From Sphingorhabdus wooponensis (lineage in GTDB: Bacteria > Pseudomonadota > Alphaproteobacteria > Sphingomonadales > Sphingomonadaceae): 64,000 bases of DNA. The DNA is taken from positions 1-64,000 of the forward strand of contig NZ_RWJI01000003.1 of assembly GCF_003933235.1 (NCBI RefSeq), given 5' to 3'. Under the pieces are notes generated by a model. That model worked only from the letters and a program-made list of their open reading frames with translations, had not been told where the DNA came from and ran no database searches. Of this stretch, positions 3,430 through 21,149 are shown piece by piece. Position 1 is the first letter of the stretch, and the number at the start of each line of letters is the position of its first letter. Made by a program: the position numbers and the translations under genes.

Positions 3430-4425
3430 ATGATACGAGTTAATCTTACCTCAGGTTTGCATTTTGACTGTTTGGACGGAATTTCGATACTAGAGTCTGC
3501 AGAAAAAGCCCAAATCGCGCTTCCCTACAGTTGCAAAACTGGTCGTTGTAGCTCTTGTAAATGCAAAGTCCTAAGTGGGCAAAGTCGGCCGTTAGTTGAC
3601 GAACTCGGTTTGACACCTGCAGAAAAAGAAGACGGTTGGATTCTCAGTTGCGCTCGAACGGCTGCGTCGGATTTGTTAATTGAAGTAGAAGATATTAGTG
3701 GATTTGTCATTCCAGCGGTTAAAACCCTCCCAGCCCGAATAAACAGCCTCCAAAAGCTAGCACCTGATGTTTTGCGCGTAATCCTAAGGGTCCCGCCTAA
3801 TAGTGTTTTGAATTATTTACCCGGCCAATACGTTAACGTGATTGGTACGGGCGGCGTTCGGCGAAGCTACTCTGTAGCTAACGCGCCATCGGCAGACGGC
3901 CAGCTTGAGTTGCACATTCGTGCCGTAGCTGGAGGTGTAATGAGTAACTATTGGTTCAGCGAAGCTAAGACTGATGATCTCGTTCGCATTAATGGACCGC
4001 TGGGGTCCTTTTTTTTGCGAGAAACGGCTGGTTTGGATTTAGTGTTTCTTGCCACAGGCACTGGCATAGCGCCGGTCAAAGCGATGATCGAAGCCATGCC
4101 ACAGCTCGCTGCGGACAAGCTACCTCGTTCAGTCACTATCGTGTGGGGCGGACGGGCCCAGGATGACATGTACTTCGATGTTGCTGCCATGCCAGGAAAT
4201 CACATTTTTATTCCCGTTTTGTCTCGCGCGAGTTCTTCTTGGTCAGGGGCACGCGGTTACGTACAACAAGCATTGCTAGAGGTTCAGCAGGACTTAAGTA
4301 AGGCAGCTGTATATGCCTGCGGTTCTGACGCAATGATACATAGCGCTCGGCTTGCAATTGTTGAGGCTGGCTTACCTTCTAACCGATTTTATTCGGATGC
4401 TTTTGTAAGCTCCGCAGCCAGTTAA
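3430..4425 (+). CDS. ascD: CDP-6-deoxy-delta-3,4-glucoseen reductase (E3)
   Basis: This is a 331-residue iron-sulfur flavoprotein reductase. An N-terminal plant-type ferredoxin domain has cysteines at 35, 40, 43 and 73 (CX4CX2C...C). It is followed by an FAD domain with RRSYSVANAP near residue 140 and an NAD domain with FLATGTGIAP near residue 205. In the known ascarylose/dideoxyhexose pathway E3 passes electrons from NADH to the E1 dehydrase to complete C-3 deoxygenation of CDP-4-keto-6-deoxyglucose. The E1 gene lies just downstream, which supports this over a generic ferredoxin reductase. Base composition is lower in GC than in the core genes to the right, suggesting acquisition by transfer. 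Other symbols used for this protein are rfbI and ddhD. Confidence 0.85.
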   Translation: MIRVNLTSGLHFDCLDGISILESAEKAQIALPYSCKTGRCSSCKCKVLSGQSRPLVDELGLTPAEKEDGWILSCARTAASDLLIEVEDISGFVIPAVKTLPARINSLQKLAPDVLRVILRVPPNSVLNYLPGQYVNVIGTGGVRRSYSVANAPSADGQLELHIRAVAGGVMSNYWFSEAKTDDLVRINGPLGSFFLRETAGLDLVFLATGTGIAPVKAMIEAMPQLAADKLPRSVTIVWGGRAQDDMYFDVAAMPGNHIFIPVLSRASSSWSGARGYVQQALLEVQQDLSKAAVYACGSDAMIHSARLAIVEAGLPSNRFYSDAFVSSAAS

Positions 4426-4675: not shown

Positions 4676-6028
4676 ATGCCCGTCGAAACCATTGCGTTAG
4701 ATCCACAAACTGACATAATTCGCGGTCAGATAATGGACCTAGTACAACAATACGCAGATATTGTTTACACACCTAACGCCTTCATCCCTGGCGAAACGGC
4801 TGTGCCAGTATCTGGCAAGGTTATTGGCGCAAAAGAGCTACAGCTTATGGTTGATGCGTCTTTAGACGGCTGGTTGACCACGGGGCGCTTCAATAAAATG
4901 TTCGAAGAACGGCTGGCCAAATTTTTAGGTGTCAAATACCTGATGACGGTTAACTCCGGTTCATCTGCTAATTTGGTTGCTTTCTCAACTCTCACCAGTT
5001 CTAAACTGGGTGATCGCGCAATTAAGCCTGGCGATGAAGTCATTGGTGTCGCCGCGGGTTTCCCGACCACCGTTAACCCCATCTTGCAGTTTGGAGCCGT
5101 CCCTGTTTTTGTGGATGTGGAATTATCTACCCATAATATCGACGCAAGCAAAATTGAAGCGGCAATAAGTTCCAAAACAAAGGCCATTATGTTGGCGCAT
5201 AGTCTCGGAAACCCCTTCAACGTTGAAGCTGTAACTGCTCTGTGTAAAAAATATAATTTGTGGTTGATTGAAGACACCTGCGACGCGTTGGGTGCGACCT
5301 ATGGCGGCCAAATGGTCGGAACTTTTGGTGACATCGGGACCCTTAGCTTTTACCCTGCACATCACATCACCATGGGTGAAGGCGGCGCGGTATTCACAAA
5401 TAGCGCCGAACTCAAAATGATCGCAGAGTCTTTCAGGGACTGGGGACGTGACTGCTATTGCCCGACAGGTAAAGACAATACATGTGATAAACGTTTCTGC
5501 TGGACGAAGAAGGATATTGGCGGAGATTTGCCAGATGGCTATGATCACAAATATACTTACAGCCACTTGGGGTACAATCTCAAGATTACGGATATGCAAG
5601 CGGCCTGTGCTCTTGGCCAAATGGACCGACTAGAAGATTTTATAGCAAGGCGCCGTGCTAACTATGCCTACCTAAGAAACCGGTTAGCTAGTTGTAGCGA
5701 ATTTTTGCACCTCCCTGAAGCCACGCCTAACTCAGAGCCATCATGGTTCGGCTTTCCGTTGGTGGTGAAAGAAAATAGCGGCGTTCAACGCTCTGACCTT
5801 ATTAACTTTTTGGATCAAAACAAAATTGGCACGCGCCTTTTATTTGCAGGTAATTTAACCAAACAGCCTTATATGGCTGGGCGCAATTTCCGAGTTAGCG
5901 GTGATTTGACCAACACCGATATTGTAATGAACCAGACGTTCTGGGTTGGCACTTATCCGGGGTTGAATGAAGAACATCTGGACTACATTGCCTCTAAATT
6001 AGAAGAGTTCTTTGGCGTGAATTTTTGA
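4676..6028 (+). CDS. rfbH: CDP-4-keto-6-deoxyglucose 3-dehydrase (E1, RfbH)
   Basis: The 450-residue protein is the PMP- and [2Fe-2S]-dependent dehydrase that removes the C-3 hydroxyl of CDP-4-keto-6-deoxyglucose, working with the E3 reductase encoded upstream. It belongs to the sugar aminotransferase fold but has His instead of the PLP-binding Lys: SFYPAHHITMGEGG puts His229 at the lysine position, the hallmark of this enzyme. Cysteines at 260, 262, 270 and 275 show the E1 iron-sulfur spacing (2, 8, 5). Full length is normal for the family. The start is ATG at 4676, with AGGA ten bases upstream. Low-GC codon use matches the gene at 3430. It converges on the glycosyltransferase operon. Confidence 0.92.
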   Translation: MPVETIALDPQTDIIRGQIMDLVQQYADIVYTPNAFIPGETAVPVSGKVIGAKELQLMVDASLDGWLTTGRFNKMFEERLAKFLGVKYLMTVNSGSSANLVAFSTLTSSKLGDRAIKPGDEVIGVAAGFPTTVNPILQFGAVPVFVDVELSTHNIDASKIEAAISSKTKAIMLAHSLGNPFNVEAVTALCKKYNLWLIEDTCDALGATYGGQMVGTFGDIGTLSFYPAHHITMGEGGAVFTNSAELKMIAESFRDWGRDCYCPTGKDNTCDKRFCWTKKDIGGDLPDGYDHKYTYSHLGYNLKITDMQAACALGQMDRLEDFIARRRANYAYLRNRLASCSEFLHLPEATPNSEPSWFGFPLVVKENSGVQRSDLINFLDQNKIGTRLLFAGNLTKQPYMAGRNFRVSGDLTNTDIVMNQTFWVGTYPGLNEEHLDYIASKLEEFFGVNF

Positions 6029-8008: not shown

Positions 8009-9390
8009 TCGCCGATCTGCCGCTCCGGCCGCGCGACCCAAGGCAATAAAGGCGCGTCACGCCGCATCCGCCAGCGGTCAGCCCAGCCTTGCTCATATAC
8101 GTCAATCCAGACGGTGCGGATCGTGCTGCAGGCGAGCGCGATAGCGATCAATTGGATTACGAGTGGCCGCACCAGGGGCCAGAGCGTCAGGTTCATTTCC
8201 ACGATTATGTCCGTATCAAATATGTAGCCATAGCGGTCAATGGTATCGATGTTGGATACGACAAGGTCATAGGAACAGCCCATGAGATAACAGCAAATGA
8301 TCGCGAAACGCGGGCCCCAGCCTTGCCAACGCTCCGTCAGCACCAGCGCAGTCCAGAAGATCGGGGTGTAGCCCCCACCCTCACTTGTGATCAGAGCGAA
8401 CATTATCGCCAACAGGTAGATGCGATAGCGCGAGATAGCCTCGGGCCTGAGCCAAGTGGCGGCCATCGCCATTAGTAAGAGGGCCTGCGTCGAGCGCAGC
8501 AGCACCGCGATGGCCAGAGGCACCAACTCGATTGCATCCGACCCGAGCACCAGCATCGTAGGGAAGATATCGTCCTTGCTCTCGAAAAAAGAAGTGATGC
8601 CTTGGTAGGTGGTAGCCGGCCAGAAATCGAGCGGGTTGGCCATGGTGTTCTGTGCCCAGGCGGTGATGTTCTGCACGATTTGGCTAAGGGTTCCAGCGCC
8701 TAACAAGGCGTAGCTGACCAAGTAAACCAGCGCAGTGGCGATCAGCACGGATTCAACCCACCGCCAGCGCCGCATGATCAGTTGCGCCATGAAGGGGGCA
8801 ATCAGGTAGAGCTTCATGTTGATCGATAAGGCCGCGAAGACCCAGCGCGCCCGCGCCGAACGCAGCAGCGGCATGATAGCAAGCAGGAACATTGGAAAGG
8901 CGATCAGCACGAGGTTACCGCGCTCGATGCCGTTCAGCATCGGCCAGCCTAGCCCCATACAGATCGTACGCGGGATCGCGGTGCGCGGATCGAACTTTCG
9001 CAGCGCAAGGAACATCAGCACGACGCCAAGCGCCCAGAAGCCGAAGATCGACACATGGCCGATCCAGTCGCAACCGCGGGCCATATAGCCGGGGCTGGAA
9101 TCCAGGCCACTCGCCAGCTGATAACAGTCGCTGACGCTAAGCGCCCGAAGGATGACGAAGGAAAGCGGTGGGTAAAGCGTGGTCCATGTTTCGAATGCGC
9201 CCTCGGGATTATAAGCCCAGTAGGCGGAGTTGAACCAGTCGGCGAAGATATCGCCCGGCTCATAGAAAAACGGGGGCGGCAAATATTTGAATGTGAACAA
9301 GAACCATGTGGCGTGCACAAGGCTAACGAGGATCAGGCCCGCCAGCACCCATTCGATAAGCACCCCGCTTTGCCAGTTACGGCGGAACAT
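8005..9390 (-). CDS. Polytopic membrane protein, GT87-like mannosyltransferase family
   Basis: About 461 residues with roughly ten hydrophobic segments. The first membrane segment is at about residues 10-32, followed by a loop with EPGDIFADWFNSAYW, where acidic and tryptophan residues resemble the first periplasmic loop of GT-C glycosyltransferases (GT87/DUF2029). The domain assignment is by general resemblance. The start is ATG at 9388-9390, which overlaps the gtrA stop as ATGA. The in-frame extension up to 9516 is antisense to nothing functional and overlaps gtrA, so it is rejected. With the GtrA and GtrB-like genes upstream it probably forms a flip-and-transfer glycosylation unit. Confidence 0.6.
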   Translation of the reverse strand: MFRRNWQSGVLIEWVLAGLILVSLVHATWFLFTFKYLPPPFFYEPGDIFADWFNSAYWAYNPEGAFETWTTLYPPLSFVILRALSVSDCYQLASGLDSSPGYMARGCDWIGHVSIFGFWALGVVLMFLALRKFDPRTAIPRTICMGLGWPMLNGIERGNLVLIAFPMFLLAIMPLLRSARARWVFAALSINMKLYLIAPFMAQLIMRRWRWVESVLIATALVYLVSYALLGAGTLSQIVQNITAWAQNTMANPLDFWPATTYQGITSFFESKDDIFPTMLVLGSDAIELVPLAIAVLLRSTQALLLMAMAATWLRPEAISRYRIYLLAIMFALITSEGGGYTPIFWTALVLTERWQGWGPRFAIICCYLMGCSYDLVVSNIDTIDRYGYIFDTDIIVEMNLTLWPLVRPLVIQLIAIALACSTIRTVWIDVYEQGWADRWRMRRDAPLLPWVARPERQIGE

Positions 9391-9815
9391 CAACGGCTCC
9401 CCGCTGCTGGCCGGAACACGAAGCGTTTGAGAATCAGGAAGTTGATCGCCGAGACGATCACCACCGCCACGAGCCCTGCAAGATAGGGCGAGGCAATCGC
9501 CTGCGACAGCGCCCACAGCACCGCAAGGCTGAGGAGATAATTCCCCGCATAGGACGCCACGAAGCGCATCGGCGATCCGGCCTCGCCTACAAAGGCATAG
9601 CGGCTGAAGGTGAAATAGTTAAACAGCGTTCCTGTCGTATGGCTGATGAGCTGGGCAATGAACATGTCCATCCCCAACCACAGCAGCGCGGCGTAGCAGC
9701 CATAGCCAAAAAGCGTGTTGACCAAGCCGGCCTGATAATAGCGCAGCAGCTGCCGCCAGTCGAACTGCATATGTGTCCGTCCGCGCAGCGGCTTTTCTGA
9801 AGGCGCCTCAGACAT
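9390..9815 (-). CDS. GtrA-family membrane protein
   Basis: A 141-residue protein with four hydrophobic helices and the GtrA features YYQAGLVNTLFGY near the start, a TGTLFNYFTFSRYAF loop in the middle, and a terminal INFLILKRFVF segment. GtrA proteins are thought to flip polyprenyl-phosphate-linked sugars across the inner membrane for periplasmic glycan modification. The GtrB-like glycosyltransferase is immediately upstream, with one base between its TGA and this ATG (9813-9815), as in classical gtr clusters. A start at residue 16 (9770) is possible. Confidence 0.85.
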   Translation of the reverse strand: MSEAPSEKPLRGRTHMQFDWRQLLRYYQAGLVNTLFGYGCYAALLWLGMDMFIAQLISHTTGTLFNYFTFSRYAFVGEAGSPMRFVASYAGNYLLSLAVLWALSQAIASPYLAGLVAVVIVSAINFLILKRFVFRPAAGSR

Positions 9816-9816
9816 C

Positions 9817-10788
9817 TCAGCTCTCGCAGGTATAATCGGGCGGAAAATTGATCCGTTCGCGCTCGAGCACCAGCGGCTGGTTGCGTGTCCGCTCGGAAAT
9901 CAGTCCGATCTGCACGCCCAGCAGGCCAAAGAATAAGAACATCAGCGTCATCTGCCCCTCGAGGAGGGCAGCAAACAACCACAACTGCCACGAGCCGTCC
10001 CACAGCGGCGACAGCACCGCGCCAGCGAGGCAGACCAGCGTTAGGAGGCCGAATAAAAATGCAGCATAGAGCGGCGCGCGCAGCAGGCCCCTCGATGATC
10101 CAGCGAGCCCGTTGAGCGCGAAGTCCAGCAACGTAAAGAAATTATTTTTAGAGCGCCCGCCTGCGCGCGGCGGACGGTCGAAGGGAATCGTTTCGATCCT
10201 GTAGCCCGTTTCCACCAGCATCCCGCGCACGAAGGGTTCAGGCTCGTTGAGCCGTTTCAGGGCAGTGACGACCTTGCGGTCGTAGATACCGAACCCTGTA
10301 GCGTTCGGAATCACCGGATAATCGCCGAAACGACGCTGAAGGCTATACGACAGGTTGCGGAAGAATTTTAACAGTAGCGAGTTCTTTTCGACCTTCCGCA
10401 CGCCCAGCACAATGGGTGTGCCCGCGCGCCAGCGGCGCACGAATTCGGGAAGAAGCGCAGGGGAATCCTGAAAGTCGGCACACATAGAAATAACGCCGCT
10501 GCCCTGAGCTGCGTAGATAGCATGGGTAGGTGAGCGCATCTGTCCAAAGTTGCGGGTGTTTACGATCAACTTGATTCGCGGATCGCGGTCACACATCTGC
10601 GTTACGATCTCAACCGTGCGATCATTGGACTCATTGTCGATAAAGATGATGTCAAAACGCGCCGCGACGCTTTCCATCTCTGCAATTACGGCTGCGGCGA
10701 TAGCCTCAACATTCTGTTCCTCGTTGCGGCAGGCGATGCACACCGTCACCTCAGGGTTAGACACCAATTCACGATCAATATGACTCAT
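9817..10788 (-). CDS. GtrB-like polyprenyl-phosphate glycosyltransferase (GT2)
   Basis: About 323 residues. An N-terminal GT-A domain shows VTVCIACRNEEQNV, FIDNESNDRT and a DFQDSP metal-binding motif near residue 105. Two C-terminal membrane segments lie at about residues 235-300. This is the GtrB/DPM-like layout: it loads a sugar nucleotide onto undecaprenyl phosphate at the cytoplasmic face for flipping by GtrA. ATG at 10788 is preferred. It lies 13 bases inside the 3' end of the upstream chain-length gene and has a GGTGAG sequence before it. A GTG three codons earlier (10797) is the alternative. Confidence 0.85.
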   Translation of the reverse strand: MSHIDRELVSNPEVTVCIACRNEEQNVEAIAAAVIAEMESVAARFDIIFIDNESNDRTVEIVTQMCDRDPRIKLIVNTRNFGQMRSPTHAIYAAQGSGVISMCADFQDSPALLPEFVRRWRAGTPIVLGVRKVEKNSLLLKFFRNLSYSLQRRFGDYPVIPNATGFGIYDRKVVTALKRLNEPEPFVRGMLVETGYRIETIPFDRPPRAGGRSKNNFFTLLDFALNGLAGSSRGLLRAPLYAAFLFGLLTLVCLAGAVLSPLWDGSWQLWLFAALLEGQMTLMFLFFGLLGVQIGLISERTRNQPLVLERERINFPPDYTCES

Positions 10789-11920
10789 TCTGCTCACCCA
10801 GTCTGTCTACAGCATGGCGAGGCGTCCGTTGGGAACCGATTGGGGCACCTAATGGCGGACGCAGGCGGTAGAATTCGATGGCCAACCACAACAGAAATAG
10901 AGCTGCCGCCGCCGCCAACAGTGACGAACGATATTGCCGCTCGGTCGAAACATATGGCTTTTCAAGCAAACGAATATTAGCTTTTGAGGTAAGATCCTCG
11001 ACAGCCGTGCCCTCAAGATAACGGACATAATTGGTATACAGAGAACGGGCGATTTTTAATTCGCGGTCGAGTTCATATACCTTCGTCGAGGCATCCACTA
11101 CTTCGCCTACTGTCCCCGCGCGCACACCTGGACGTTTATCGAGCGCCTCATTCAGTTGTTCTGTAAGCGCATCGCGCTCAGCCTGAAGCTGGACTATCGC
11201 CATATTCTCTGGCGTGAAGAACCTACTGGCGGCCGCAATACGCCGATCAACGTCTGCAATTGAGGCACGCAACCCCGGAATGCGTCCACTGATTGTTCCA
11301 ATCGAGGCCCCAGGATCAGCATAGCCGTTCTGCAGCCGGAAAGCATCGAATTCACTCTGGGCCTTGGAAAGGCGAAGACCAGATTCCGCAACGAGCCTTT
11401 CTAAAAGCTCCTTTTTGTATTTCGTCTGGCGCTGCATAATTTTTGCCAACTCATCACGGGTGGCATCGGTAAAGGCGGCAACGACGTCCTGAGCAATTTT
11501 TTTGTCAGTTTCGTCCATCTGGATCAATATTATTCCGCCACGCAGAGCGCGAATTTCGACCTTATTTTGGAGCCATCGATGCAGTTCTATTTTTGACATA
11601 TCAAGCCGCGACTCAAGCGATAGATCGCGGATCACCCTATCGCGTGTATAAATACTGTTCCCAATTCGCAGCGCTACTTCGACAGCGGCTTGCTTCCCAA
11701 ACACCGAATTCAGGGCACCAAACTGCTCAAGTGTATTGGACAGGCCAAGCGAACCGGGATCGGTCGGGGTCAGAGATGCCTCCACACGAAAATTCTCGGG
11801 AAAGGCTGCAAAGCCAACCAGAGCAGCTATTGGGACGCCGAAAAGTAGGGCGCGCTTCCACAGGCGATCGAGCGATTTTAGTCCAGCAAGGCTGCCGGTG
11901 AAAGAGTGACGCGGCGTCAT
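10775..11920 (-). CDS. KpsE/Wzz-type polysaccharide chain-length/export protein
   Basis: A 381-residue inner-membrane protein with one membrane segment near residues 25-42, a long periplasmic region with coiled-coil character (about 150-290, many QAERDALTEQL-type stretches), and a second membrane segment near 335-352. This is the two-helix hairpin layout of polysaccharide co-polymerases and capsule export proteins. It has no C-terminal tyrosine-kinase domain. Its partner is the SLBB outer-membrane protein encoded immediately upstream; the TGA of that gene shares its A with this ATG (TGATG). I see no ABC transporter genes, so either chain-length control or export with distant partners is possible. 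Confidence 0.75.
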   Translation of the reverse strand: MTPRHSFTGSLAGLKSLDRLWKRALLFGVPIAALVGFAAFPENFRVEASLTPTDPGSLGLSNTLEQFGALNSVFGKQAAVEVALRIGNSIYTRDRVIRDLSLESRLDMSKIELHRWLQNKVEIRALRGGIILIQMDETDKKIAQDVVAAFTDATRDELAKIMQRQTKYKKELLERLVAESGLRLSKAQSEFDAFRLQNGYADPGASIGTISGRIPGLRASIADVDRRIAAASRFFTPENMAIVQLQAERDALTEQLNEALDKRPGVRAGTVGEVVDASTKVYELDRELKIARSLYTNYVRYLEGTAVEDLTSKANIRLLEKPYVSTERQYRSSLLAAAAALFLLWLAIEFYRLRPPLGAPIGSQRTPRHAVDRLGEQNESY

Positions 11921-13824
11921 CAGTTGATCGCCGCAACAGTCGCGGCCGCAAGGCCTAACTGGAACACTATGGAGGATATCTGAGCGATCTTAGTGAATAT
12001 ATCACTCGACTGTGTGCGAATAGGCACGAATACTACGTCACCAGGCAATGCTTTTTGGTTAAATGCGCCTTGGGAACGGGTAAGTACGCTGCCGTTGGCA
12101 CGTACCACAAAAATGTCACCCCGATTGGCCGCTTGTAGTGTACCTCCGGCTAGCTCCAGATAGTCCCGTATTTTTCGTGGATTAGTCTCATCAATTTGAA
12201 ACGAGGCCGGGCGATAAACCGCGCCAAATACCCCAATGCTGGTCGGTCGGGGGGGAATTACTATCCGGTCACCATTCTCCAGTAGGATACCGCGGGGCAG
12301 GCTCTGCGAATCGGGCTTAGTTTCCAATACCAAACGTCCATCCGGCTTTGCCTCCCGCAGTTTCGCGAGGGTCGCTTTAGCTGCAAGTAGTTGGACCTCG
12401 GAGCGGCGTTGGTCTAAGCCGTTGGTAGACTGGAGCGGTGAAGAGGCTAAAGCTATTTCAAACAGGTCAAGCGCTTCTTCGAAGCTGCGCTTCTGTTGAA
12501 CCATAACCGTCTGGCGTGTTAGACCTGCGCCATACACAAAAGCCCGTTGGCTATACCCGCCAGCGAGTTTTATCACTTCATCTAGCGGCTTATTAGGTTC
12601 TACATAATAGTTGCCTGGATTGACCACTTCCCCCTCTACCCGAACAACAACAGACTGTCGGTCCGTAGGACGCATAAGGTTGCCTTCTGCAAGAACCTGG
12701 ATCACGTCTCCTGCACGAACAACTGTGCTACCAAATTCTTTAGCCAATATTTCACGGGGCCCAGGTACTCCGGTCATGTCAGTACTGTAGATCATAACGC
12801 GGCTAATTTCGGCAAGTTCATCTTTTCCACCGGCATAGCGCAGCGCATCTTCGATCGTTTCAGAACCGCGCAATTCGAAAATTGCTTCACGCCGAACGCT
12901 ACCCGCGACCGCAATCTGCGGCGCTGCTGGGGGAATGACTATGACATCTTCATTCTCAAGCGTCACATCCTTCGCGCGGTTCCCGTTGATCAAGATATCA
13001 TACAGATCGATGTCAGCAATCTCGACCCCGTCACGCACAAGCTTAGCATTTCGCCAACTACCGCCTGCAGCGGGTCCGCCCGCTTGAAGAATCGCATTGA
13101 ACGCAGTCGTTAGACTGTTAACCGAGAACGCACCTGGGTTGACCGCGTAGCCCGTTACGAACACGCGCACGCCGCGTAGTTCGGTAGTCCGCACACCGAC
13201 CCGGAAATTGCGGAACTGGGTTCCTATCGCACGCGTCAGAACGGCCTTGAGGTCGCCTTGACGCACACCTGCAAGTGTAATTTCACCAACAGAGGATAAG
13301 AAAATCCGACCGTTATTATCGACAGTCCGCTCCACGCTGCCTTCTGCTGAACCAGTTAGCGAGATCGAGATCGTATCGCCTACGTTGATGCGGTAGTCGG
13401 GGGGGATAGTTGCGTCGGCAGACCTTTCAAAGTCGCGCCCGTCTGGCAAAACAAGATCGGCCCCGAAACGCTGCAAGGGGCGCCCAAGCATGCGGGTGAC
13501 GTAAGTCTCGAACTCGTTCGGTTCCGCTTTGCGAGTGTCTGCCGGATCACGGTCAAACAGAGACTTGGACTTCTCACTTTTTTCACGCGACTGAGTTCTG
13601 TTGCGCGACGCCTCGTCTGTGACCCGCGTAGGTTCAATTCCGTCTGATTGCTCGCTGTCATATTCGTCTTGGCTGTCTTGACGGCTGTCCGACTGACGAT
13701 CATCACGTGAGCTACGTTCCTCATCAGTCGAGCTTGAAACAGGGAAAGTTTGTGCATTCAGCGAAATAGGCTGAGCCACCAGCGCCAGAAACGATGCGGA
13801 AACGGTAAGGATAGAGCGGAGCAT
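11920..13824 (-). CDS. Polysaccharide export outer-membrane protein (Wza/KpsD type)
   Basis: About 634 residues. A Sec signal peptide (MLRSILTVSASFLALVAQ) is followed by a long low-complexity Ser/Asp/Arg/Gln-rich region at about residues 30-90, then a polysaccharide-export domain with DYRINVGDTISISLTGSAEG, and several SLBB-like repeats (GSVRREAIFELRGSETI, GEVVNPGNYYVEPN, GAVYRPASFQI). These form the periplasmic ring and outer-membrane channel for polysaccharide export. The start is uncertain. ATG at 13824 puts the signal peptide at the N-terminus. ATG at 13935 has the better Shine-Dalgarno (AAGG) and lies five bases after the upstream stop, but would place 37 residues before the signal. Confidence 0.85.
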   Translation of the reverse strand: MLRSILTVSASFLALVAQPISLNAQTFPVSSSTDEERSSRDDRQSDSRQDSQDEYDSEQSDGIEPTRVTDEASRNRTQSREKSEKSKSLFDRDPADTRKAEPNEFETYVTRMLGRPLQRFGADLVLPDGRDFERSADATIPPDYRINVGDTISISLTGSAEGSVERTVDNNGRIFLSSVGEITLAGVRQGDLKAVLTRAIGTQFRNFRVGVRTTELRGVRVFVTGYAVNPGAFSVNSLTTAFNAILQAGGPAAGGSWRNAKLVRDGVEIADIDLYDILINGNRAKDVTLENEDVIVIPPAAPQIAVAGSVRREAIFELRGSETIEDALRYAGGKDELAEISRVMIYSTDMTGVPGPREILAKEFGSTVVRAGDVIQVLAEGNLMRPTDRQSVVVRVEGEVVNPGNYYVEPNKPLDEVIKLAGGYSQRAFVYGAGLTRQTVMVQQKRSFEEALDLFEIALASSPLQSTNGLDQRRSEVQLLAAKATLAKLREAKPDGRLVLETKPDSQSLPRGILLENGDRIVIPPRPTSIGVFGAVYRPASFQIDETNPRKIRDYLELAGGTLQAANRGDIFVVRANGSVLTRSQGAFNQKALPGDVVFVPIRTQSSDIFTKIAQISSIVFQLGLAAATVAAIN

Positions 13825-13940
13825 AGATGTTTCGTAAATGTCCAAAAAACGAAAGATAGTAGAAGGTTCGGCTGACAACTGAGGAGTTCGGTTTTGTTCC
13901 TGCCATCTCGGGCGGAATGTTTGTGATTCTGTCATTGTTA

Positions 13941-14930
13941 TTACCTTAAATGGAGCTCAGGTGCTATCGTTATGGCAGTATTTTGAATTTGTTGGCCCAA
14001 CGGCACAGATGCAATACCAGCGGCTTCTAACAGAGAAGCATAGATTCCAGCATCCCCAGTGTAATTATTGTCGACGCTCTCCGTAATCGGGGCACGCACT
14101 ACATTTCCGCCCAGTACACGGGCAACTTCGGCAGCAACCTCCCGCAGTTCTAGAACCTCCCCGCCACTGTCATAGCGATATACTGACACGCCGCCGGATC
14201 CCAATAATTGGAATAAAACAAGCGACACCAGTTCGCTTATCGCAACATAGCTGCGTATCACCCGCATTGGTGCGCGTACAGAAATCGGACGGCAAGCCAG
14301 CGCATCAATGATGAAGCTTGCAAGAGCATAAGTGTCATATTTGTTAATGAAGGGCCCGGTCAGATTGTAGATTCGCGTAATGACAGCACGCCGTCCTGTA
14401 TCGGCCTCTGCCCAAGCAACGAAGCGATCCTCGTCCTCCCGCTTGAGCCCGCCATAGATTCTCAGATCTTCGCTCGCAGAAGAAACATCCGCGAAGGCCG
14501 CAGCACCTGAGGAGGCAACGAAAAGCCGGTCAGCACCGATTGCACTGAGCGCCTCGAGAACAGTGCTTGAAAGCGCTCGATTAGATTCGCGATATTCGTC
14601 ACGATCAATAACCGCAACCTTGTCCTTTGTCAGAAAGGCAAGATGGAACAAAGCTGTCGGCTGTGGGTGCAAGCCGGCAAGTTCGTCAAGCGGACGCTGC
14701 GCGATGGTGATTGCGTCACCAAGGTCAATCATTCTCGACGAAGAGCCGAAAGCGAATACGCGTTCAGAAAATGCATCAACGCCCAAGGCGGAATGTAGAC
14801 CGCGCAGCAGACCTCGGCCGACCCAGCCACCGGCTCCCACCACGACTATACGCCGTGTGTCCATCAAAAGCTCAGACACAGAGGAAGGTGCAAGCGCCGT
14901 TGCCGAGGTCAGAGTAGGAAGGGGTTGCAT
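13941..14930 (-). CDS. NAD(P)-dependent sugar epimerase/reductase (extended SDR)
   Basis: A 329-residue Rossmann-fold enzyme with a VVVGAGGWVGRG nucleotide-binding loop near residue 30, an ASSGAAAF segment corresponding to the catalytic Ser region, and YGGLK as the YxxxK catalytic pair. It belongs to the extended SDR family that reduces or epimerises nucleotide sugars. It follows the ThDP enzyme by five bases. In the yersiniose pathway a reductase (YerF) reduces the two-carbon branch added by the ThDP enzyme (YerE). A similar role here is inferred from position, not from a diagnostic motif. An internal ATG at 14864, just before the nucleotide loop, is an alternative start. Confidence 0.7.
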   Translation of the reverse strand: MQPLPTLTSATALAPSSVSELLMDTRRIVVVGAGGWVGRGLLRGLHSALGVDAFSERVFAFGSSSRMIDLGDAITIAQRPLDELAGLHPQPTALFHLAFLTKDKVAVIDRDEYRESNRALSSTVLEALSAIGADRLFVASSGAAAFADVSSASEDLRIYGGLKREDEDRFVAWAEADTGRRAVITRIYNLTGPFINKYDTYALASFIIDALACRPISVRAPMRVIRSYVAISELVSLVLFQLLGSGGVSVYRYDSGGEVLELREVAAEVARVLGGNVVRAPITESVDNNYTGDAGIYASLLEAAGIASVPLGQQIQNTAITIAPELHLR

Positions 14931-14935
14931 GAAGC

Positions 14936-16678
14936 TTACCCAATACCGGCGGGAGTTAGGTAGTCGATTTCAGGCGTCATCCGGTCAATCGGGTTCGATT
15001 CCATCGAACCGCTTTCCGTTACCCGACTGCTGATCTTGGGAAGGTAAGTCTGCTCTGGATCCACCGGCACAATGAATGCATGTAGGCCATCACTCGCCAT
15101 TGCCGCAAGGAAATCGGGATCTTCCGTAAACGCTACCGGCAAACGCATGACCGGGATATCCCAAGCGGCGAAAAGCTTATCCCACGTTGGCAGACCCAGA
15201 CCCGAACGCGTATCGCATCCGAGGTACTTTCCGCCAAAATAGTTTCTCTGGGTCATCCGGATCGAGGCGTGCCCCTGATCATCGAAGATGAAAATCTTGA
15301 GGTTGAGATCATTGACCCGTGCAGTACCCAGCTCCTGTAAATTCTGAGCGAAACCGCCATCACCCTCAATCAGTATGGTGCGGCGCCCAGGAGCCGCAAT
15401 GGCTGCCCCGATCGCGCCTGACAGACCGTATCCCATTGAGGCGAGCGACTTGTTTGTAATAAGGCGCTGCCCCAGTTTCTGATTGTAGAGCTGCATGGAC
15501 AGGGTGAATGCGCTGCCGCTGGAGCAGGGGATTACAAGATCGTCATCGCGGGTCAGCGTCTCTAGGTTTACAATGAAATCATAAGGAGAGAGGTACCCAG
15601 CGCCAGTTTGATTGACCTCTTCGACCCGTGGAATGGCCGCACGGATCTGCTTGGCGCGGGTCAGCCATTCGGGTTTTGATTCCAGTCCTTGAGCCAGCAT
15701 ACGGCGCAGGAAGTTATTCGCATCGGCGTTCACGGCAATGTCAGTGCGCGGATGGCCCTTGGCCAATTCCGCCGGATCGATTTCGACCTGTACGATTTTC
15801 GCTCCGCGGCCGAATTCCTGCCAGTTGAACCCGGTCTGCTGCAGCCCAAGCCGTGTTCCCAGCGCGACGATAAGGTCGGACTGCTGGATAATGATGTTGG
15901 AGCTGCGCTGACCCCAAGTATTTGGTCGACCGAGATAATAAGGCGCATTACCATCGATGCGGTCAGCGCCATTATAAGTTGTCATAGTTGGCAGTGAGAG
16001 CTTGTCGAGGGTATCGCGAACGGCATCGACTGTGCCGATATCGACACCGCCGCCGATCAGCAGCATTGGTCGATCCGCATTGTTCCAGAGCCTTACGACC
16101 TCTGACACCCTGTCTTCCTCTGCTATCTGCAGCACCGGTGCGGACATTTCCGGAAAGGGTTCTTCGTCGCGATGGGCAGCCTGCACATCAAGCGGGAATT
16201 CGAGAAACACCGGACCTTTTCGTGGTGTCCAACTCGGCTCAATAATGGCCAGAAACTCGGCAGCTGAAGCTGGCTGCTCGAGCCGCGTCGACACTTTTGT
16301 CATCGACTCCATAAGCGCGACACCGTCGATCTCCTGTATGCCACGTGAGCGCACCTGTCCCCGGGCAAGATCGGACGTCTTTACCTGGCCGCCGATAACC
16401 AGCAGCTCCCGGCTTTCCAGCCAGGCGCCGCTCACGGCGGTAACGATGTTGGTCTGCCCTGGACCAGCTGTAACCAGCGCTAGCGCCCTGGCCGGTGCGG
16501 CAATCAGGTTGAAATACTCTGCACCAATGCCGGCAGCGACTTCATGCACCACTGGCACCCCGGTCAGAAAACGGTCGAGGCTCTCGGTCAAGTGCATAAT
16601 ATTGCCCCCGCCGACGTAAAAATAATGTGTGTAGCCAGCTGCTTTGAGCCAGGCGCCTATCTGATCACTATACTTCAT
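14936..16678 (-). CDS. ThDP-dependent enzyme, acetolactate synthase-like (YerE-like candidate)
   Basis: A 580-residue three-domain thiamine diphosphate enzyme. The cofactor-activating glutamate is in VVHEVAAGIGAEY (Glu46), the central domain has LLIGGGVD near residue 205, and the C-terminal ThDP domain has EGDGGF with Asp440. The second metal-binding motif reads FIFDDQGHASIR (Asp466-Asp467), where Asn-Asn is usual. Acetolactate-synthase-like members in polysaccharide loci transfer a two-carbon unit from pyruvate to a 4-keto sugar (YerE in yersiniose synthesis), and that is the best guess given rfbF/rfbG/rfbH/ascD nearby. An ordinary housekeeping acetohydroxyacid synthase is unlikely, as no regulatory subunit is present. 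The start ATG overlaps the HAD gene stop (ATGA). Confidence 0.75.
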   Translation of the reverse strand: MKYSDQIGAWLKAAGYTHYFYVGGGNIMHLTESLDRFLTGVPVVHEVAAGIGAEYFNLIAAPARALALVTAGPGQTNIVTAVSGAWLESRELLVIGGQVKTSDLARGQVRSRGIQEIDGVALMESMTKVSTRLEQPASAAEFLAIIEPSWTPRKGPVFLEFPLDVQAAHRDEEPFPEMSAPVLQIAEEDRVSEVVRLWNNADRPMLLIGGGVDIGTVDAVRDTLDKLSLPTMTTYNGADRIDGNAPYYLGRPNTWGQRSSNIIIQQSDLIVALGTRLGLQQTGFNWQEFGRGAKIVQVEIDPAELAKGHPRTDIAVNADANNFLRRMLAQGLESKPEWLTRAKQIRAAIPRVEEVNQTGAGYLSPYDFIVNLETLTRDDDLVIPCSSGSAFTLSMQLYNQKLGQRLITNKSLASMGYGLSGAIGAAIAAPGRRTILIEGDGGFAQNLQELGTARVNDLNLKIFIFDDQGHASIRMTQRNYFGGKYLGCDTRSGLGLPTWDKLFAAWDIPVMRLPVAFTEDPDFLAAMASDGLHAFIVPVDPEQTYLPKISSRVTESGSMESNPIDRMTPEIDYLTPAGIG

Positions 16679-17379
16679 GTACGTGTCCCATCCGCAATAG
16701 AGAGCAGCGAAGAGATGATGGTATGAACCTGACTTTGGCTCAGGCTGGATGATGTCTCGCGGTCATAGCCCCAGTTGGCATGAAGGGGTAGGTGAACTTG
16801 GCCCTGAAACGGCTCGAGATGACTATTCATGTCATCGACATAGACAATCATATATTTTTTCGGGTCGAGCCAATTTTGTGATTTCGCGACGTTTAACTTG
16901 CTACCCAGCTTGCGAATGTCCTCTTGTCCGAAAATCTGAATTCCATCGACACCGTTGAACGCCAAGGCCTCATGAATTGAGCTCACATTGCGTGTCGATA
17001 GAATCGCGAAACGGTCGGGGCATTGCAGCAGAATCGGCTTTAGCAGGAAGAAAAAATCATATGCCGGCATGACCTTTGGCCATTCGGGATCCTCCATGAT
17101 GGTACGTCGTGCTTCGAAGAAGTCACGCGAGAAGCTCCAATCGCCTTCATCAGGAGTGATCATGTGCAGTGTGTTCGGCAAAACCGAACTGGTTGCACCG
17201 TAAAGTCGATTATACTGCCAGGCGTCGGTCACAACGCTGCGGAATGCCAAGAATTCCTCGTAATTGACGTCCTGACGAAAACCGACCCGCCCTTTGGTGG
17301 CATGATTTGCCACACTAAACGCCTCAAATGCACTGTTGAACAGCACGCCGTCAAAATCGAGGACAAACTTGATTTCCAT
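16675..17379 (-). CDS. HAD-superfamily hydrolase
   Basis: About 234 residues. Motif I is VLDFDGVLFNS (Asp8 nucleophile, Asp10 acid/base), a cap insertion occupies about residues 14-110, motif II is the Ser/Thr in AILSTRN, a lysine follows in RKLGSKLNVAKS, and motif IV is YVDDMNSH. All catalytic features of a Mg-dependent phosphatase are present. Substrate is unknown. Placement between an aldolase-like gene and a ThDP enzyme suggests dephosphorylation of a sugar or keto-acid intermediate. ATG at 17377-17379 is chosen because it overlaps the aldolase stop (TGATG); the GTG codon just before it is less likely. Confidence 0.75.
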   Translation of the reverse strand: MEIKFVLDFDGVLFNSAFEAFSVANHATKGRVGFRQDVNYEEFLAFRSVVTDAWQYNRLYGATSSVLPNTLHMITPDEGDWSFSRDFFEARRTIMEDPEWPKVMPAYDFFFLLKPILLQCPDRFAILSTRNVSSIHEALAFNGVDGIQIFGQEDIRKLGSKLNVAKSQNWLDPKKYMIVYVDDMNSHLEPFQGQVHLPLHANWGYDRETSSSLSQSQVHTIISSLLSIADGTRT

Positions 17380-18080
17380 CACAGCCGTTCCCGCAAGACC
17401 GATGCGCGCGCTTGGGCTGCACTGCCGATTTCGCCATAAGACGCGATTTGCATATCCAGCAGCACCGTTTCCACAGCGAAAGCATCCATCAGAGCGTCCG
17501 GTTCAAGGAACCTTACGACCGGCATGACGCATTTACGCGTTTCGACAGATGCGATGAGATCGCGCAACTCGCCGTCTTCTTGCAGCAGGCTTAACGTTTC
17601 TGCGTTGACTGTACCTCCCATTGTAGTCTTCAGCCCCCGCGCTTTTGCCGCACGGGCAACGGTTTTAACCATGGAGATTGTTTCCGGAGAATTCACGCCC
17701 GATCCGCCGAAGCTAGCGGTCAGATCGCTGCGTCCAACGGTAACCTCGGTAAGCTTGATACCTGCGTCAAGAATAGCTTCGATACGTTCAACGGCTGTGA
17801 TTGTCTCAATGGTCACGCCGACGTGCTTGAACGCGCCATCGGGGAGCATTTCCTGATACTTTTGCATTGCGAAGGGGCTCTCGATCATCGGGGCGACGAT
17901 ACTCTCGATCCCCTGCATCATCAGAAAACGCATATCGGACTTGGCCTCGCAACCGCCGATCTTTACGAGATAGGGCAAGCCATGGCGCGCTGCCCAAGCG
18001 GCTTCAGCGGCAACTGAGTCGCGCGTTAGACCTTCGGCTTCGAACTCACCTTTCAATGAGATTATTCGTGAGAGATTCAT
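17379..18080 (-). CDS. HpcH/HpaI-type aldolase (citrate lyase-like)
   Basis: A 233-residue TIM-barrel protein with features of the HpcH/HpaI aldolase and citrate lyase beta group: VAPMIESPFAMQKY (Glu), HVGVTIETITAVERI (metal-binding Glu) and TEVTVGRSDLTASFGG (metal-binding Asp). Such enzymes make or break carbon-carbon bonds with pyruvate or acetyl-CoA enolates. In this operon it may build or cleave the keto acid used by the downstream ThDP enzyme, or extend a sugar chain. No described dideoxyhexose pathway that I know requires it. The start ATG has a GGAG site seven bases upstream. TGA overlaps the HAD start. Confidence 0.7.
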   Translation of the reverse strand: MNLSRIISLKGEFEAEGLTRDSVAAEAAWAARHGLPYLVKIGGCEAKSDMRFLMMQGIESIVAPMIESPFAMQKYQEMLPDGAFKHVGVTIETITAVERIEAILDAGIKLTEVTVGRSDLTASFGGSGVNSPETISMVKTVARAAKARGLKTTMGGTVNAETLSLLQEDGELRDLIASVETRKCVMPVVRFLEPDALMDAFAVETVLLDMQIASYGEIGSAAQARASVLRERL

Positions 18081-18098
18081 TTGGTCACTCCGGTGTAA

Positions 18099-18254
18099 TC
18101 AATCGCGAATGACGGCGAGAAAATCCCGCACACTGTCAGCCACGAATGAGATGTTGTAGTTGCTGATCCCGCGGCAAAGGCCTATCCCAGAGGTATTGAT
18201 TGTAACGAAATCTGCATTTTTGAGGACGAGAGCAATTGTGTTGGTGTTATATGG
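18099..18254 (-). pseudogene. Orphan C-terminal fragment, unrecognised
   Basis: Directly after the rfbG stop, and in the same frame, the minus strand stays open for 51 codons up to TGA at 18099-18101, 18 bases before the aldolase ATG. It reads like real protein, with LVLKNADFVTINTSGIG and ISNYNISFVADSVRDF. It has no ATG or GTG start, only the rfbG stop upstream. I do not recognise the family. The simplest reading is the 3' remainder of a gene truncated by rearrangement when the cluster was assembled. Read-through from rfbG is a less likely alternative. Confidence 0.45.
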
Positions 18255-19337
18255 TCAGGCATGAGATTGAAACTCCAATAATTTTTCTGCCAATTGACCT
18301 CGATAGAGATCCAATTGTTTGGAACAAATTTCGAGTGGGTCCCCCCCACTTTCTACAAATTTATGCCATTCTACAATTAGCGTCAGTGCCGCATCGAGTG
18401 AAAGCACGGGATTCCAACCCAACTCGCTCCGAGCTTTAGTACAGTCCAGCTTTAGATACCTTGCCTCATGGGGCTTAGGACCATCCTCACCTTGCCAGCC
18501 GGGCGCGCCCCAAGAAGCGGTAAGGCGGTTAGCAATCCAGTCAACCGGCTTAGCATCTTCGTCGCGAGGCCCAAAATTCCATCCACAGGCAACGTCTTGG
18601 TCACCTGCAAAAAGGCGCTCGGCGATCATAATATATCCGCCCAAGGCCTCTAGAACATGTTGCCAGGGGCGCACGGCGGTTGGATACCGAATTAACGGCT
18701 TTTCTCCAGCAATCATAGCACGCACTATGTCTGGAATCAGTCGTGATTCCGCCCAATCTCCTCCACCGATAACATTACCAGCACGCACAGATGCAAGGTA
18801 GGGCCCCGAATTAAAATAGCTGCGCCGGTAGGCTGAAACAACTAGTTCAGCCGCGCCCTTACTGCTGCTATAAGGGTCATAACCACCCATTGGATCGCTT
18901 TCGCGATACGGCCATACCCAATCACGATTTTCGTAGCACTTATCGCTTGTTACACAGACAATGCTCCGAAGAGAAGGGAGCCGCCGGCAACAGTCAAGTA
19001 GGTGAACCGTTCCCTGCACATTCGTGGCATAGGTCTCCACCGGCTCCTCATAAGATTTACGAACCAACGGCTGTGCCGCGAGATGGAAAACAACTTCCGC
19101 GCGAGAAGCCTGAACCGCCGATTCAAGAGCGTGCATATCTCGAATGTCGCCCTCGATATGTTCGACGATATCGGCTATTCGCGCCTGTCGAAACAGGCTT
19201 GTTTCATCCGCCGGAAGCGAAAACCCCGTAACGCGCGCACCCATTTGCGAAAGCCAAACAGAGAGCCAGCTACCCTTAAAGCCTGTGTGCCCGGTAATGA
19301 GCACGCGACGGTCCCGCCAAAACGAAGCGTTTACCAT
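18255..19337 (-). CDS. rfbG: CDP-glucose 4,6-dehydratase
   Basis: About 360 residues, usual family length. This extended SDR has VLITGHTGFKGSW as the nucleotide loop, TSDKCYEN as the active-site Thr-Asp region and YDPYSSSKGAAE as the YxxxK motif. It converts CDP-glucose to CDP-4-keto-6-deoxyglucose, the substrate of the RfbH dehydrase encoded at 4676. ATG at 19335-19337 is chosen: it overlaps the rfbF 3' end by seven bases and has GGAAG before it. A longer frame to 19364 lies inside rfbF and is unlikely. Confidence 0.92.
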   Translation of the reverse strand: MVNASFWRDRRVLITGHTGFKGSWLSVWLSQMGARVTGFSLPADETSLFRQARIADIVEHIEGDIRDMHALESAVQASRAEVVFHLAAQPLVRKSYEEPVETYATNVQGTVHLLDCCRRLPSLRSIVCVTSDKCYENRDWVWPYRESDPMGGYDPYSSSKGAAELVVSAYRRSYFNSGPYLASVRAGNVIGGGDWAESRLIPDIVRAMIAGEKPLIRYPTAVRPWQHVLEALGGYIMIAERLFAGDQDVACGWNFGPRDEDAKPVDWIANRLTASWGAPGWQGEDGPKPHEARYLKLDCTKARSELGWNPVLSLDAALTLIVEWHKFVESGGDPLEICSKQLDLYRGQLAEKLLEFQSHA

Positions 19338-20098
19338 GACTTCCACGGGGGGGATTTCGCCCACAATGATTCAAGATGCAACTTGTCTCGAAGAGTGTCC
19401 ATCGGTTGCCAAAAGCCGTTATGGCGATAAGCTACCAATTCATCATCTGCCGCAAGAGCTTCCAACGGCCCCTGCTCCCAAATCGTTTCGGGACCATCGA
19501 TCAGGTCAAGCACCGATGTATCAAGCACAAAGAAGCCGCCATTAATCATCCCGCCGTCACCATCTGGTTTTTCGGCAAAAGATTTTACGCGGTCGCCTTG
19601 AAACTCTAGAGCGCCAAAGCGCCCGGGCGGGGTAACAGCAGTGATGGTCGCTTTTTTGCCATGCGCTTCATGGCAAGCGATGAGGGCCGCAATATCCACA
19701 TCGGCAACACCGTCGCCATATGTCATACAAAACGGCTTATCCTTATCCAAATATTGCCCGACCGCCTTAAGACGACCTCCGGTCATAGTTTCAGCGCCCG
19801 TCTCTACCAACGTAATCTTCCATGGCTCACTCCAATTCTCGTGGACCTCTGAACGATTGCTAGAGAGATCTATGGTGATGTCAGCCGTATGCAGATGATA
19901 ATTGGCAAAAAATTCTTTAATCATGTAGCCTTTGTAACCAAGGCAGATAATAAATTCGTTTATCCCATAAGTGGAGTAAATCTTCATTATGTGCCAAATA
20001 ATTGGCATGCCTCCCACTTCAACCATAGGCTTAGGACGGGTAGACGTCTCTTCGCCTAAGCGGGTCCCAAGTCCCCCCGCCAGAATTACTGCTTTCAT
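19331..20098 (-). CDS. rfbF: Glucose-1-phosphate cytidylyltransferase
   Basis: About 255 residues, near the family's usual 257. The N-terminal nucleotide-binding signature AGGLGTRLGEET is followed by PKPMVEVGG, with CMTYGDGVADVD as the metal-binding region. It makes CDP-glucose from CTP and glucose-1-phosphate, the entry step to CDP-dideoxyhexoses. ATG at 20096-20098 is used, giving the canonical MKAVILAGG start; an ATG four codons upstream is possible. This is the intact counterpart of the remnant at 4442. Confidence 0.93.
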   Translation of the reverse strand: MKAVILAGGLGTRLGEETSTRPKPMVEVGGMPIIWHIMKIYSTYGINEFIICLGYKGYMIKEFFANYHLHTADITIDLSSNRSEVHENWSEPWKITLVETGAETMTGGRLKAVGQYLDKDKPFCMTYGDGVADVDIAALIACHEAHGKKATITAVTPPGRFGALEFQGDRVKSFAEKPDGDGGMINGGFFVLDTSVLDLIDGPETIWEQGPLEALAADDELVAYRHNGFWQPMDTLRDKLHLESLWAKSPPWKSW

Positions 20099-20192
20099 GA
20101 GTGCATCCAAATCAAAAATGACGTCTTTTCTGTGGGTGGGGGAGGTAGAAATTTAGTTAATTTTTGTCAACGACCAAATATTTCTGAATAGG

Positions 20193-20966: not shown

Positions 20967-21149
20967 GGGATCCATTTATAGTGGCCGCGCCAACAATTGA
21001 AGGTAAAAAATTTGTGGGCAGGTTACGGTAAGGCTGACCAACCCAAATGTTTAGCGTCATCTCTACTCCGTGCGCCCACACCCACTTGCGCGTTATTAAC
21101 ATCCATGGCAGTAAGCCTTAACCGCGCAATTAAATGAGGAATCACGCCC

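Follow-up and report, generated by a model that had tools for sequence, protein, structure and literature searches.

A CDP-dideoxyhexose operon coupling an HpcH-like aldolase and a HAD phosphatase to a YerE-like carboligase: a putative route to a long-branched sugar

Long-branched sugars, among them caryophyllose and erwiniose, have been described chemically, and the chemistry of RfbF, RfbG, RfbH, and their reductase, which also open the yersiniose A pathway (RfbF, RfbG, RfbH, E3, YerE, and a reductase), is established for their families. The 4-hydroxy-2-oxo acids are products typical of pyruvate aldolases. According to the accessible part of PMC12247030, the donor of the ThDP carboligase YerE is pyruvate, whereas ErwE, the YerE-like enzyme for erwiniose in Pectobacterium atrosepticum, and MMAR_2332, associated with caryophyllose in the Mycobacterium marinum lipooligosaccharide, prefer 4-hydroxy-2-oxo acids. 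The caryophyllose branch is a 1,3,4,5-tetrahydroxyhexyl group (PMC5706390, accessible part). The origin of the hydroxylated keto acids for such long-branched sugars was not given in the accessible parts of the limited literature searched, and the operon analyzed here provides a concrete, testable answer to it.

The window, which is the whole 64,000-nucleotide stretch of Sphingorhabdus wooponensis DNA analyzed, carries the six minus-strand genes that an earlier note had placed at 13941–20098, all of which were confirmed from open reading frames and, for the genes other than HAD, from profile matches; RfbH and its reductase at 3430–6028 were also borne out, both on the plus strand (Table 1). The note had described the six genes as having overlapping start and stop codons throughout. 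This held for HpcH/HAD and HAD/ThDP, where 4-nt overlaps couple the three genes, and for the reading frames of rfbF and rfbG, but not for ThDP and SDR, which are spaced by 5 nt, nor for rfbG and HpcH, which are separated by 174 bp. No rfbH similarity was noticed by eye in the three minus-strand frames of this gap. The start of rfbF is probably the in-frame ATG at 20098. The rfbH gene is single-copy in its own genome, and AHHITMGEGG occupies what we take to be the place of the PLP-lysine site.

Table 1. Features of the operon and its surroundings in the window.
Feature	Position	Strand	Basis
FAD/NAD/2Fe-2S reductase, presumed E3 partner of RfbH	3430..4425	+	PF00111, PF00970, PF00175
rfbH, C-3 dehydratase (E1)	4676..6028	+	NF011936, 743 bits, cut-off 423
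GtrA-like membrane protein	9390..9815	-	PF04138
Family 2 glycosyltransferase	9817..10797	-	PF00535
BexC/KpsE-like chain-length protein, weak match	10775..11920	-	TIGR01010, 31.5 bits, below cut-off
Wza-like polysaccharide export protein (SLBB)	11920..13935	-	PF02563, PF22461, PF10531
SDR, proposed branch-ketone reductase	13941..14930	-	PF01370; ThDP neighbor in 11/11 close loci
YerE-like ThDP carboligase	14936..16678	-	PF02776, PF00205, PF02775
HAD phosphatase	16675..17382	-	HAD motifs and fold
HpcH/HpaI-like aldolase, KxEFEAEG subfamily	17379..18080	-	PF03328, 32.4 bits, cut-off 25
Gap, rfbH slot in 9/11 close relatives	18081..18254		Locus comparison
rfbG, CDP-glucose 4,6-dehydratase	18255..19364	-	TIGR02622, 466 bits, cut-off 278
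rfbF, glucose-1-phosphate cytidylyltransferase	19331..20110	-	TIGR02623, 431 bits, cut-off 300

The HpcH-like protein belongs to a widespread HpcH subfamily with a KxEFEAEG motif. It exceeded the PF03328 cut-off without an NCBIfam match, and its predicted structure (pLDDT 93.5) is a TIM barrel of the class II pyruvate aldolase type, with HpcH/HpaI-family enzymes (3qz6, HpaI, HpcH, and YfaU) as the best Foldseek matches. Its sequence is similar to that of a hydroxyketoacid aldolase (E 8e-8), and its E92 and D119, invariant in 30/30 alignment rows, align with the IET...GPxDL metal-ligand motif of the solved hydroxyketoacid aldolase family, a predicted Glu and Asp pair as in class II pyruvate aldolases. 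In our own alignment, the positions of the HpaI catalytic dyad, Asp42/His45, correspond approximately to Lys10 and Phe13, and that of the presumed pyruvate-binding residue, Arg70, to Lys40. Because the dyad and Arg70 are replaced, the chemistry may have changed, and we therefore name the protein HpcH-like rather than HpaI.

The motifs of the HAD protein (D9, D11, S129-T130, K162, and D183-D184) were invariant in 12/12 aligned proteins, and its predicted structure has a phosphatase-type fold. It matched no Pfam or NCBIfam profile, and thus no curated HAD family; a related protein in locus L061 had a sub-threshold match to PF00702. The HAD fold is common, which we counted against the donor-building model proposed below.

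The ThDP enzyme has three TPP-enzyme domains and a GDGG ThDP-binding motif, and its nearest solved structure is 8rph (265.7 bits vs 181.4 for the next). In 398 genomes, the scores of a ThDP profile left a gap between 534 and 408 bits, the profile having been built from YerE-like, HpcH-linked loci, which it favors. By sequence, YerE-like enzymes rather than acetolactate synthases appear to be its closer kin, and in a tree of a 20-row set it joined those of the Mycobacterium LOS-type loci L047 and L049 (SH-aLRT 100). A housekeeping acetolactate synthase was ruled out because the genome holds a separate acetolactate-synthase-like gene, which scored 317 bits compared with 937 for the operon gene.

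Comparison of genomes showed that rfbG, HpcH, HAD, ThDP, and SDR occur in the same order in 11/11 closest loci among the best 80 of 471 HpcH relatives, with an HpcH identity of 57–96%, and the order was also present in G039, a genome of another family. In 9 of these 11 close relatives, rfbH sits between rfbG and HpcH. The earlier note would have abandoned its reading had the aldolase and HAD grouped with unrelated catabolic enzymes and the set not been conserved elsewhere; instead, both travel with the ThDP gene and not with catabolic genes, and a catabolic aldolase present by chance was rejected because the operon set is conserved in all 11 close loci. HAD matches were found, with its own genome counted, in 2/240, 2/398, and 2/61 genomes; among the 72,556 records of a plasmid collection, there were 0 matches for HAD and 3 for HpcH.

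To compare donor modules, we used the best 80 of the 471 HpcH relatives, which had been selected for their resemblance to the window and are related by descent. A YerE-like ThDP gene lay within 6 kb of HpcH in 51 of these 80 loci. Among the 51, a phosphatase was present in 29, a dehydroquinate-synthase-like (DHQS-like) enzyme with a FabG-like SDR in 14, neither phosphatase nor DHQS-like enzyme in 8, and both together in none (Fisher p 2.5e-7 for the exclusion, for loci that share descent). The counts were restricted to the 80 loci, with duplicates lying outside (L020 = L028; L022, L023, and L024 match L050, L057, and L073). This exchange of phosphatase for DHQS-like enzyme next to HpcH is consistent with a small product that carries a phosphate. 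The phosphatases were of varied subfamilies, Pfam-confirmed for the subset submitted, and in 7 of the 29 loci the gene did not directly adjoin HpcH on the same strand. As the phosphatase reference sequences were drawn from HpcH loci, a HAD/IMPase motif scan was added, which recovered 25 of the 29 phosphatase loci, none of the 14 DHQS loci, and none of the 8 with neither. In the other 29 of the 80 loci, no ThDP gene lay within 6 kb, and several of these had no sugar genes seen nearby; hence, the HpcH family has other uses. HpcH relatives without ThDP adjoin CTP_transf_3 proteins in L045, L048, L055, and L061, the last with a HAD too, a neighborhood that would fit a CMP-activated ulosonic acid.

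As controls, 14 YerE-like ThDP loci without the KxEFEAEG HpcH contained no phosphatase or DHQS by profile, and the motif scan was likewise negative (0/14). NeuB-like synthases and MhpE are makers of 2-keto acids; the former were present in 7/14 of these loci, and the 4-hydroxy-2-oxovalerate aldolase MhpE plus MhpF in 3/14. No donor module was found in 4/14, where L142 and L147 end at a contig edge upstream of ThDP. All 3 MhpE proteins and 3 of the 7 NeuB-like ones were examined with Pfam, the remaining assignments being by phmmer. The phylum searches scored no more than 3 first-look candidates per genome for ThDP and 6 for HpcH.

Taken together, the product of the operon is probably a CDP-activated 3,6-dideoxyhexose that bears a long polyhydroxyalkyl branch at C4, the donor of which is built by HpcH and HAD. 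By sequence, RfbF and RfbG would yield CDP-4-keto-6-deoxyglucose, from which RfbH and the reductase would remove the 3-hydroxyl to give CDP-4-keto-3,6-dideoxyglucose. HpcH may join pyruvate and a phosphorylated aldehyde into a phosphorylated 2-keto-3-deoxy-4-hydroxy acid, the phosphate of which could be removed by HAD, either at this point or, in an alternative order, after coupling. The ThDP enzyme, by analogy with its relatives, is proposed to decarboxylate the 2-keto acid and attach the resulting acyl unit at the keto carbon C4 of CDP-4-keto-3,6-dideoxyglucose, and the SDR would reduce the new branch ketone, with a predicted branch of -CHOH-CH2-CHOH-...-CH2OH. Such a sugar would belong with the long-branched caryophyllose/erwiniose class and not be yersiniose. 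The earlier note had offered a longer branched sugar or a keto-acid donor built on site as alternatives, and the comparative evidence supports both at once.

A yersiniose-type two-carbon branch, with the ThDP enzyme using pyruvate and with HpcH and HAD as accessories, for example through an HpcH retro-aldol reaction releasing pyruvate, is unlikely. Although the ThDP, SDR, and CDP-dideoxy genes would by themselves yield yersiniose and the reversibility of HpcH-type enzymes is established for the family, HpcH and HAD are retained in 11/11 close loci and pyruvate requires no dedicated aldolase or other donor-building gene, for which reasons we lowered this reading. The grouping of the window ThDP enzyme with those of L047 and L049 also argues against it, as MMAR_2332, a mycobacterial relative to which the L047/L049 enzymes are presumably orthologous, reportedly prefers hydroxylated donors (PMC12247030, accessible part).

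It could instead be that HpcH extends the sugar or nucleotide sugar directly while HAD hydrolyzes a sugar phosphate or nucleotide sugar, the donor being made otherwise. The HAD family without a Pfam or NCBIfam match and the putative nature of the HpcH and HAD substrates leave room for this, but the replacement of HpcH by NeuB-like or MhpE-type 2-keto-acid makers in other ThDP loci, together with the phosphatase/DHQS interchange, renders it improbable. We regard as very improbable that the HpcH-like protein is a different lyase or ligase sharing this fold (for example CitE- or malyl-CoA-lyase-like) that leads to a different branch product; the HpaI dyad is absent and the fold matches include CLYBL and malyl-CoA lyases as well, whereas E92/D119 are retained in 30/30 rows and pyruvate aldolases are the best sequence and fold matches.

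Beyond the long-branched sugar proposed for this operon, a broader reading is conceivable but somewhat doubtful, namely that C4-branched sugar loci follow a code in which every YerE-like carboligase is accompanied by an interchangeable donor module that fixes the branch, that the window represents an undescribed sugar of the HpcH plus phosphatase kind, and that the KxEFEAEG HpcH constitutes a new aldolase family in many phyla. In such a code, HpcH with a phosphatase would give a polyhydroxyalkyl branch ending in CH2OH, MhpE with MhpF a 1,3-dihydroxybutyl branch, and NeuB-like enzymes longer ulosonate branches. HpcH with a DHQS-like enzyme and an SDR would give a CH3-ended branch and the caryophyllose donor, because the DHQS-like enzyme would expel the phosphate of 3-deoxyheptulosonate 7-phosphate without ring closure and the SDR would reduce the ketone. 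Gene neighborhoods may thus predict branch types in many uncharacterized polysaccharide loci, and the operon points to further aldolases and carboligases, new ones, that could serve in the synthesis of tertiary alcohols.

Among known systems, the yersiniose A pathway resembles the window in combining CDP-3,6-dideoxyhexose genes with a ThDP carboligase and with a reductase; however, the window has putative donor genes, the aldolase and phosphatase being locked between rfbG and ThDP. The view of the earlier note that these two are foreign to the yersiniose pathway agrees with the use of pyruvate by YerE (PMC12247030, accessible part). For erwiniose, the enterobacterial locus L148 (genome G444) has a YerE-like cluster with MhpE, MhpF, and a classic HpaI, from which the KxEFEAEG HpcH and HAD are both absent, and which we would guess to be the erwiniose cluster. 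In the Kdo pathway (KdsA-KdsC-KdsB), a phosphorylated 3-deoxy-2-ulosonic acid is built and then dephosphorylated, the same logic as proposed for HpcH and HAD, although the window enzymes are an HpcH-type protein and a HAD of other families and their acid would undergo decarboxylation and grafting rather than CMP activation. Among solved structures, the closest to the ThDP enzyme, 8rph, which with 8rpi and 8rpj we take from its CDG motif to be JanthE, differs from the window enzyme, which has GDG. No link to a bradyrhizose-like carbocyclic sugar was possible, as the genes for bradyrhizose synthesis are reported as not known and only a dTDP-glucose-dehydratase-like gene of an 11-gene cluster is named (PMC4743980, accessible part); the window operon has no DHQS-like gene.

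The caryophyllose system was compared through its relatives in M. bohemicum and M. ahvazicum, L047 and L049. A direct link to the M. marinum genes was not made; the product of MMAR_2331 is not stated in the accessible parts of PMC5706390, PMC12395582, PMC13354803, and PMC4703794, and by analogy with the GT-ThDP-HpcH order in L049 we would guess it to be the HpcH gene. L047 and L049 contain ThDP, HpcH, and CDP-sugar genes, with the ThDP enzymes in a supported set with that of the window, but have a DHQS-like enzyme and a FabG-like SDR where the window has HAD, and the caryophyllose branch terminates in a methyl group, unlike the CH2OH end proposed for the window sugar.

HpcH and HAD of the window operon most likely build, and then dephosphorylate, an acyl donor. 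Gene content, conservation, folds, motifs and neighbourhood statistics were computed here; we infer each reaction, the reaction order and the branch of the operon's sugar. An open-access literature search returned no paper tying HpcH or a phosphatase to these loci, and we do not claim that the donor idea is unpublished. The earlier note had described an operon of rfbF and rfbG with an aldolase, a HAD protein, a ThDP enzyme and an SDR, and all six were confirmed on one strand. Its claim that all start and stop codons overlap held for rfbF-rfbG and HpcH-HAD-ThDP, but not for ThDP-SDR (5 nt apart) or rfbG-HpcH (174 bp apart). The host assembly (2.18 Mb, 8 contigs) has a single rfbH copy and an acetolactate-synthase-like gene separate from the operon ThDP gene. 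Window positions 20193-22517 also hold an M23 peptidase gene, which lies immediately upstream of rfbF, and a gene for a cytochrome P450.

Dideoxysugar genes of the window
Feature	Position	Strand	Basis
rfbF, rfbG, HpcH/HpaI-like, HAD-like, three-domain ThDP enzyme, SDR	13941-20110	minus	ORFs and domain matches
rfbH	4676-6028	opposite to operon	
FAD/NAD/2Fe-2S reductase	3430-4425	opposite to operon	

A scan with the HpcH alignment yielded 471 relatives, the best 80 of which were kept. The gene set recurs in other genomes: rfbG, HpcH, HAD, ThDP and SDR were present in all 11 of the closest loci among these 80, at 57-96% HpcH identity (Sphingomonadales, to which the window's close relatives belong, a Caulobacter MAG, a Proteobacteria MAG and Mitsuaria), with rfbF and rfbH in 10 each and rfbH between rfbG and HpcH in 9. 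The remaining 69 of the best 80 showed 27-36% HpcH identity. In G039, a genome from another family of the same class, ORFs read by eye ran rfbF-rfbG-rfbH-HpcH-HAD-ThDP-SDR, followed by a Wza-like gene, with identities to the window of 57% (HpcH) and 53% (HAD). The sole window rfbH lies 12 kb from the rfbG-HpcH slot (18081-18254), its usual site in most relatives, and is 84% identical to rfbH of Mitsuaria (L038) versus 58-66% to the other 10 relatives compared; it is likely a replacement by a foreign copy.

Neighbourhoods were counted as genes within 6 kb of HpcH in the 80 named loci, the best of 471. A YerE-like ThDP gene was found in 51 of the 80, and these loci carried a phosphatase in 29, a dehydroquinate-synthase (DHQS)-like gene with a FabG-like SDR in 14, both in 0 and neither in 8 (Fisher p 2.5e-7). 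Leaving out the close clade gave 18/14/0/8 in the same order (p 1.4e-5), and full-flank loci only gave 19/9/0/5 (p 5e-5). The phosphatase was on the same strand within 150 bp in 22 of the 29, and on the opposite strand in L063 and L075. Several kinds are represented among these phosphatases, with Pfam run on six examples: HAD proteins like that of the window, NagD-like and phosphoglycolate-phosphatase-like types, and a single member of the inositol-monophosphatase family; L107 has a second inositol-phosphatase, with its ThDP gene further away. A third cluster type, candidate-phyla genomes included (L062, L066, L101, L097, L050, L073), combines HpcH and ThDP with a NagD-type HAD, a Nudix and a methyltransferase-like protein, often with CDP-sugar genes and in some with a radical SAM protein. 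In gut Firmicutes, similar proteins of 238-240 aa directly precede HpcH (L065 9194-9916, L071 9204-9920, L078 9228-9950); the two submitted, from L065 and L078, matched no Pfam family.

The 29 HpcH loci without ThDP among the best 80 comprised 7 with a phosphatase, 5 with DHQS and 17 with neither, several without sugar genes. Around the HpcH relatives of L039, L041, L042, L052, L079 and L088, which bear the KxEFEAEG motif or a variant, neither a ThDP nor a CDP-sugar gene was recognised; they represent another use of the family. CTP_transf_3 proteins, which share their fold family with the CMP-Kdo and CMP-sialate synthetases, adjoin HpcH relatives without ThDP in L045, L048, L055 and L061, the last with a HAD upstream too, which fits an ulosonic-acid product as an independent hint; the neighbour in L021 matched NTP_transf_3 instead.

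A ThDP profile search of 398 Pseudomonadota genomes gave 7 matches of at least 745 bits, 14 at 534-622 bits, and then none above 408. The top 7 were all in HpcH-bearing genomes, and in the eighth, G247, HpcH is on another contig. The 14 lower loci, which lack an HpcH with the motif, showed no phosphatase or DHQS (0/14), and a HAD/IMPase motif scan that recalls 25/29 positives and is independent of the phosphatase references likewise gave 0/14. They carried a NeuB-like gene in 7 and MhpE with MhpF in 3, and the same search found neither NeuB nor MhpE in the 51 HpcH-ThDP loci among the best 80; no module was seen in 4, 2 of them cut off at a contig end. NeuB-like proteins directly adjoin the ThDP gene in L140, L141, L145, L146, L149 and L150, with a Pfam-checked C-terminal cupin domain in L140 and L149. 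One lower locus, L148 (3442-12303), has rfbF, rfbG, rfbH, HpaI-like, ThDP, MhpF and MhpE genes in a row and is a candidate erwiniose-type cluster; NCBIfam places its MhpE and MhpF above cut-off, as a 4-hydroxy-2-oxovalerate aldolase and an acetylating acetaldehyde dehydrogenase respectively, and 16S pieces of the genome are mostly 93-99% like E. coli.

Fold comparison of the confident HpcH model (pLDDT 93.5) gave, as best hits, members of the HpcH/HpaI family and pyruvate aldolases of class II (3qz6, HpaI, YfaU, HpcH, SwHKA), and a 30-row HpcH profile found the hydroxyketoacid aldolase SwHKA (E 8e-8), with whose IET...GPTDL motif E92 and D119 align. Invariant in 30/30 rows were E12, E14, E16, G17, K40, E45, D49, E67, E92, D119 and ETRK 180-183. 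A plain HpaI reading is nevertheless disfavoured: in our alignment Lys10 and Phe13 replace the HpaI dyad Asp42/His45, and Lys40 lies close to the place of the pyruvate-binding Arg70. For HAD, motifs I-IV were invariant in 12/12 sequences and the model (pLDDT 89.7) matched HAD phosphatases; no curated family match and, by profile search, no solved relative was found. The structure closest to the ThDP enzyme was 8rph, taken as JanthE (265.7 bits; runner-up 181.4), which carries the CDG motif that a review assigns to JanthE (PMC12247030).

A quick IQ-TREE of 76 ThDP enzymes, with SH-aLRT support only, 18 open forks and YerE, ErwE and JanthE left out, united all 14 rows that share the window's type in one group (SH-aLRT 100). 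The two Mycobacterium enzymes, together with L026, L027, L084 and L076, bring the enclosing set to 20 rows (100). Across the tree, the phosphatase type and the DHQS type swap repeatedly, the starred branches forcing at least 6 and at least 7 changes, and their mutual exclusion is therefore not one event.

Alongside rfbF, rfbG and rfbH, Mycobacterium bohemicum and M. ahvazicum carry genes for a ThDP enzyme, HpcH, a FabG-like SDR and a DHQS-like protein. At least 90% of 22 DHQS-like sequences retain R107, D123, K129, N139, E171, K174, R227, N231, H234, H238, H250 and K311; these positions presumably correspond to residues that bind substrate and metal in genuine DHQS, which makes a DAHP-like substrate plausible. 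According to the review, pyruvate is the donor of YerE but is not used by ErwE, whose preference is for 4-hydroxy-2-oxo acids; MMAR_2332 resembles ErwE (PMC12247030). Caryophyllose is described as 3,6-dideoxy-4-C-(1,3,4,5-tetrahydroxyhexyl)-hexopyranose (PMC5706390). Pyruvate aldolases make 2-keto-3-deoxy-4-hydroxy acids, from which a branch hydroxylated at 1 and 3, with CH2 at 2, would follow. The DHQS-like protein might eliminate phosphate from the DAHP-like substrate without ring closure, and reduction could then yield a 7-deoxy acid matching caryophyllose.
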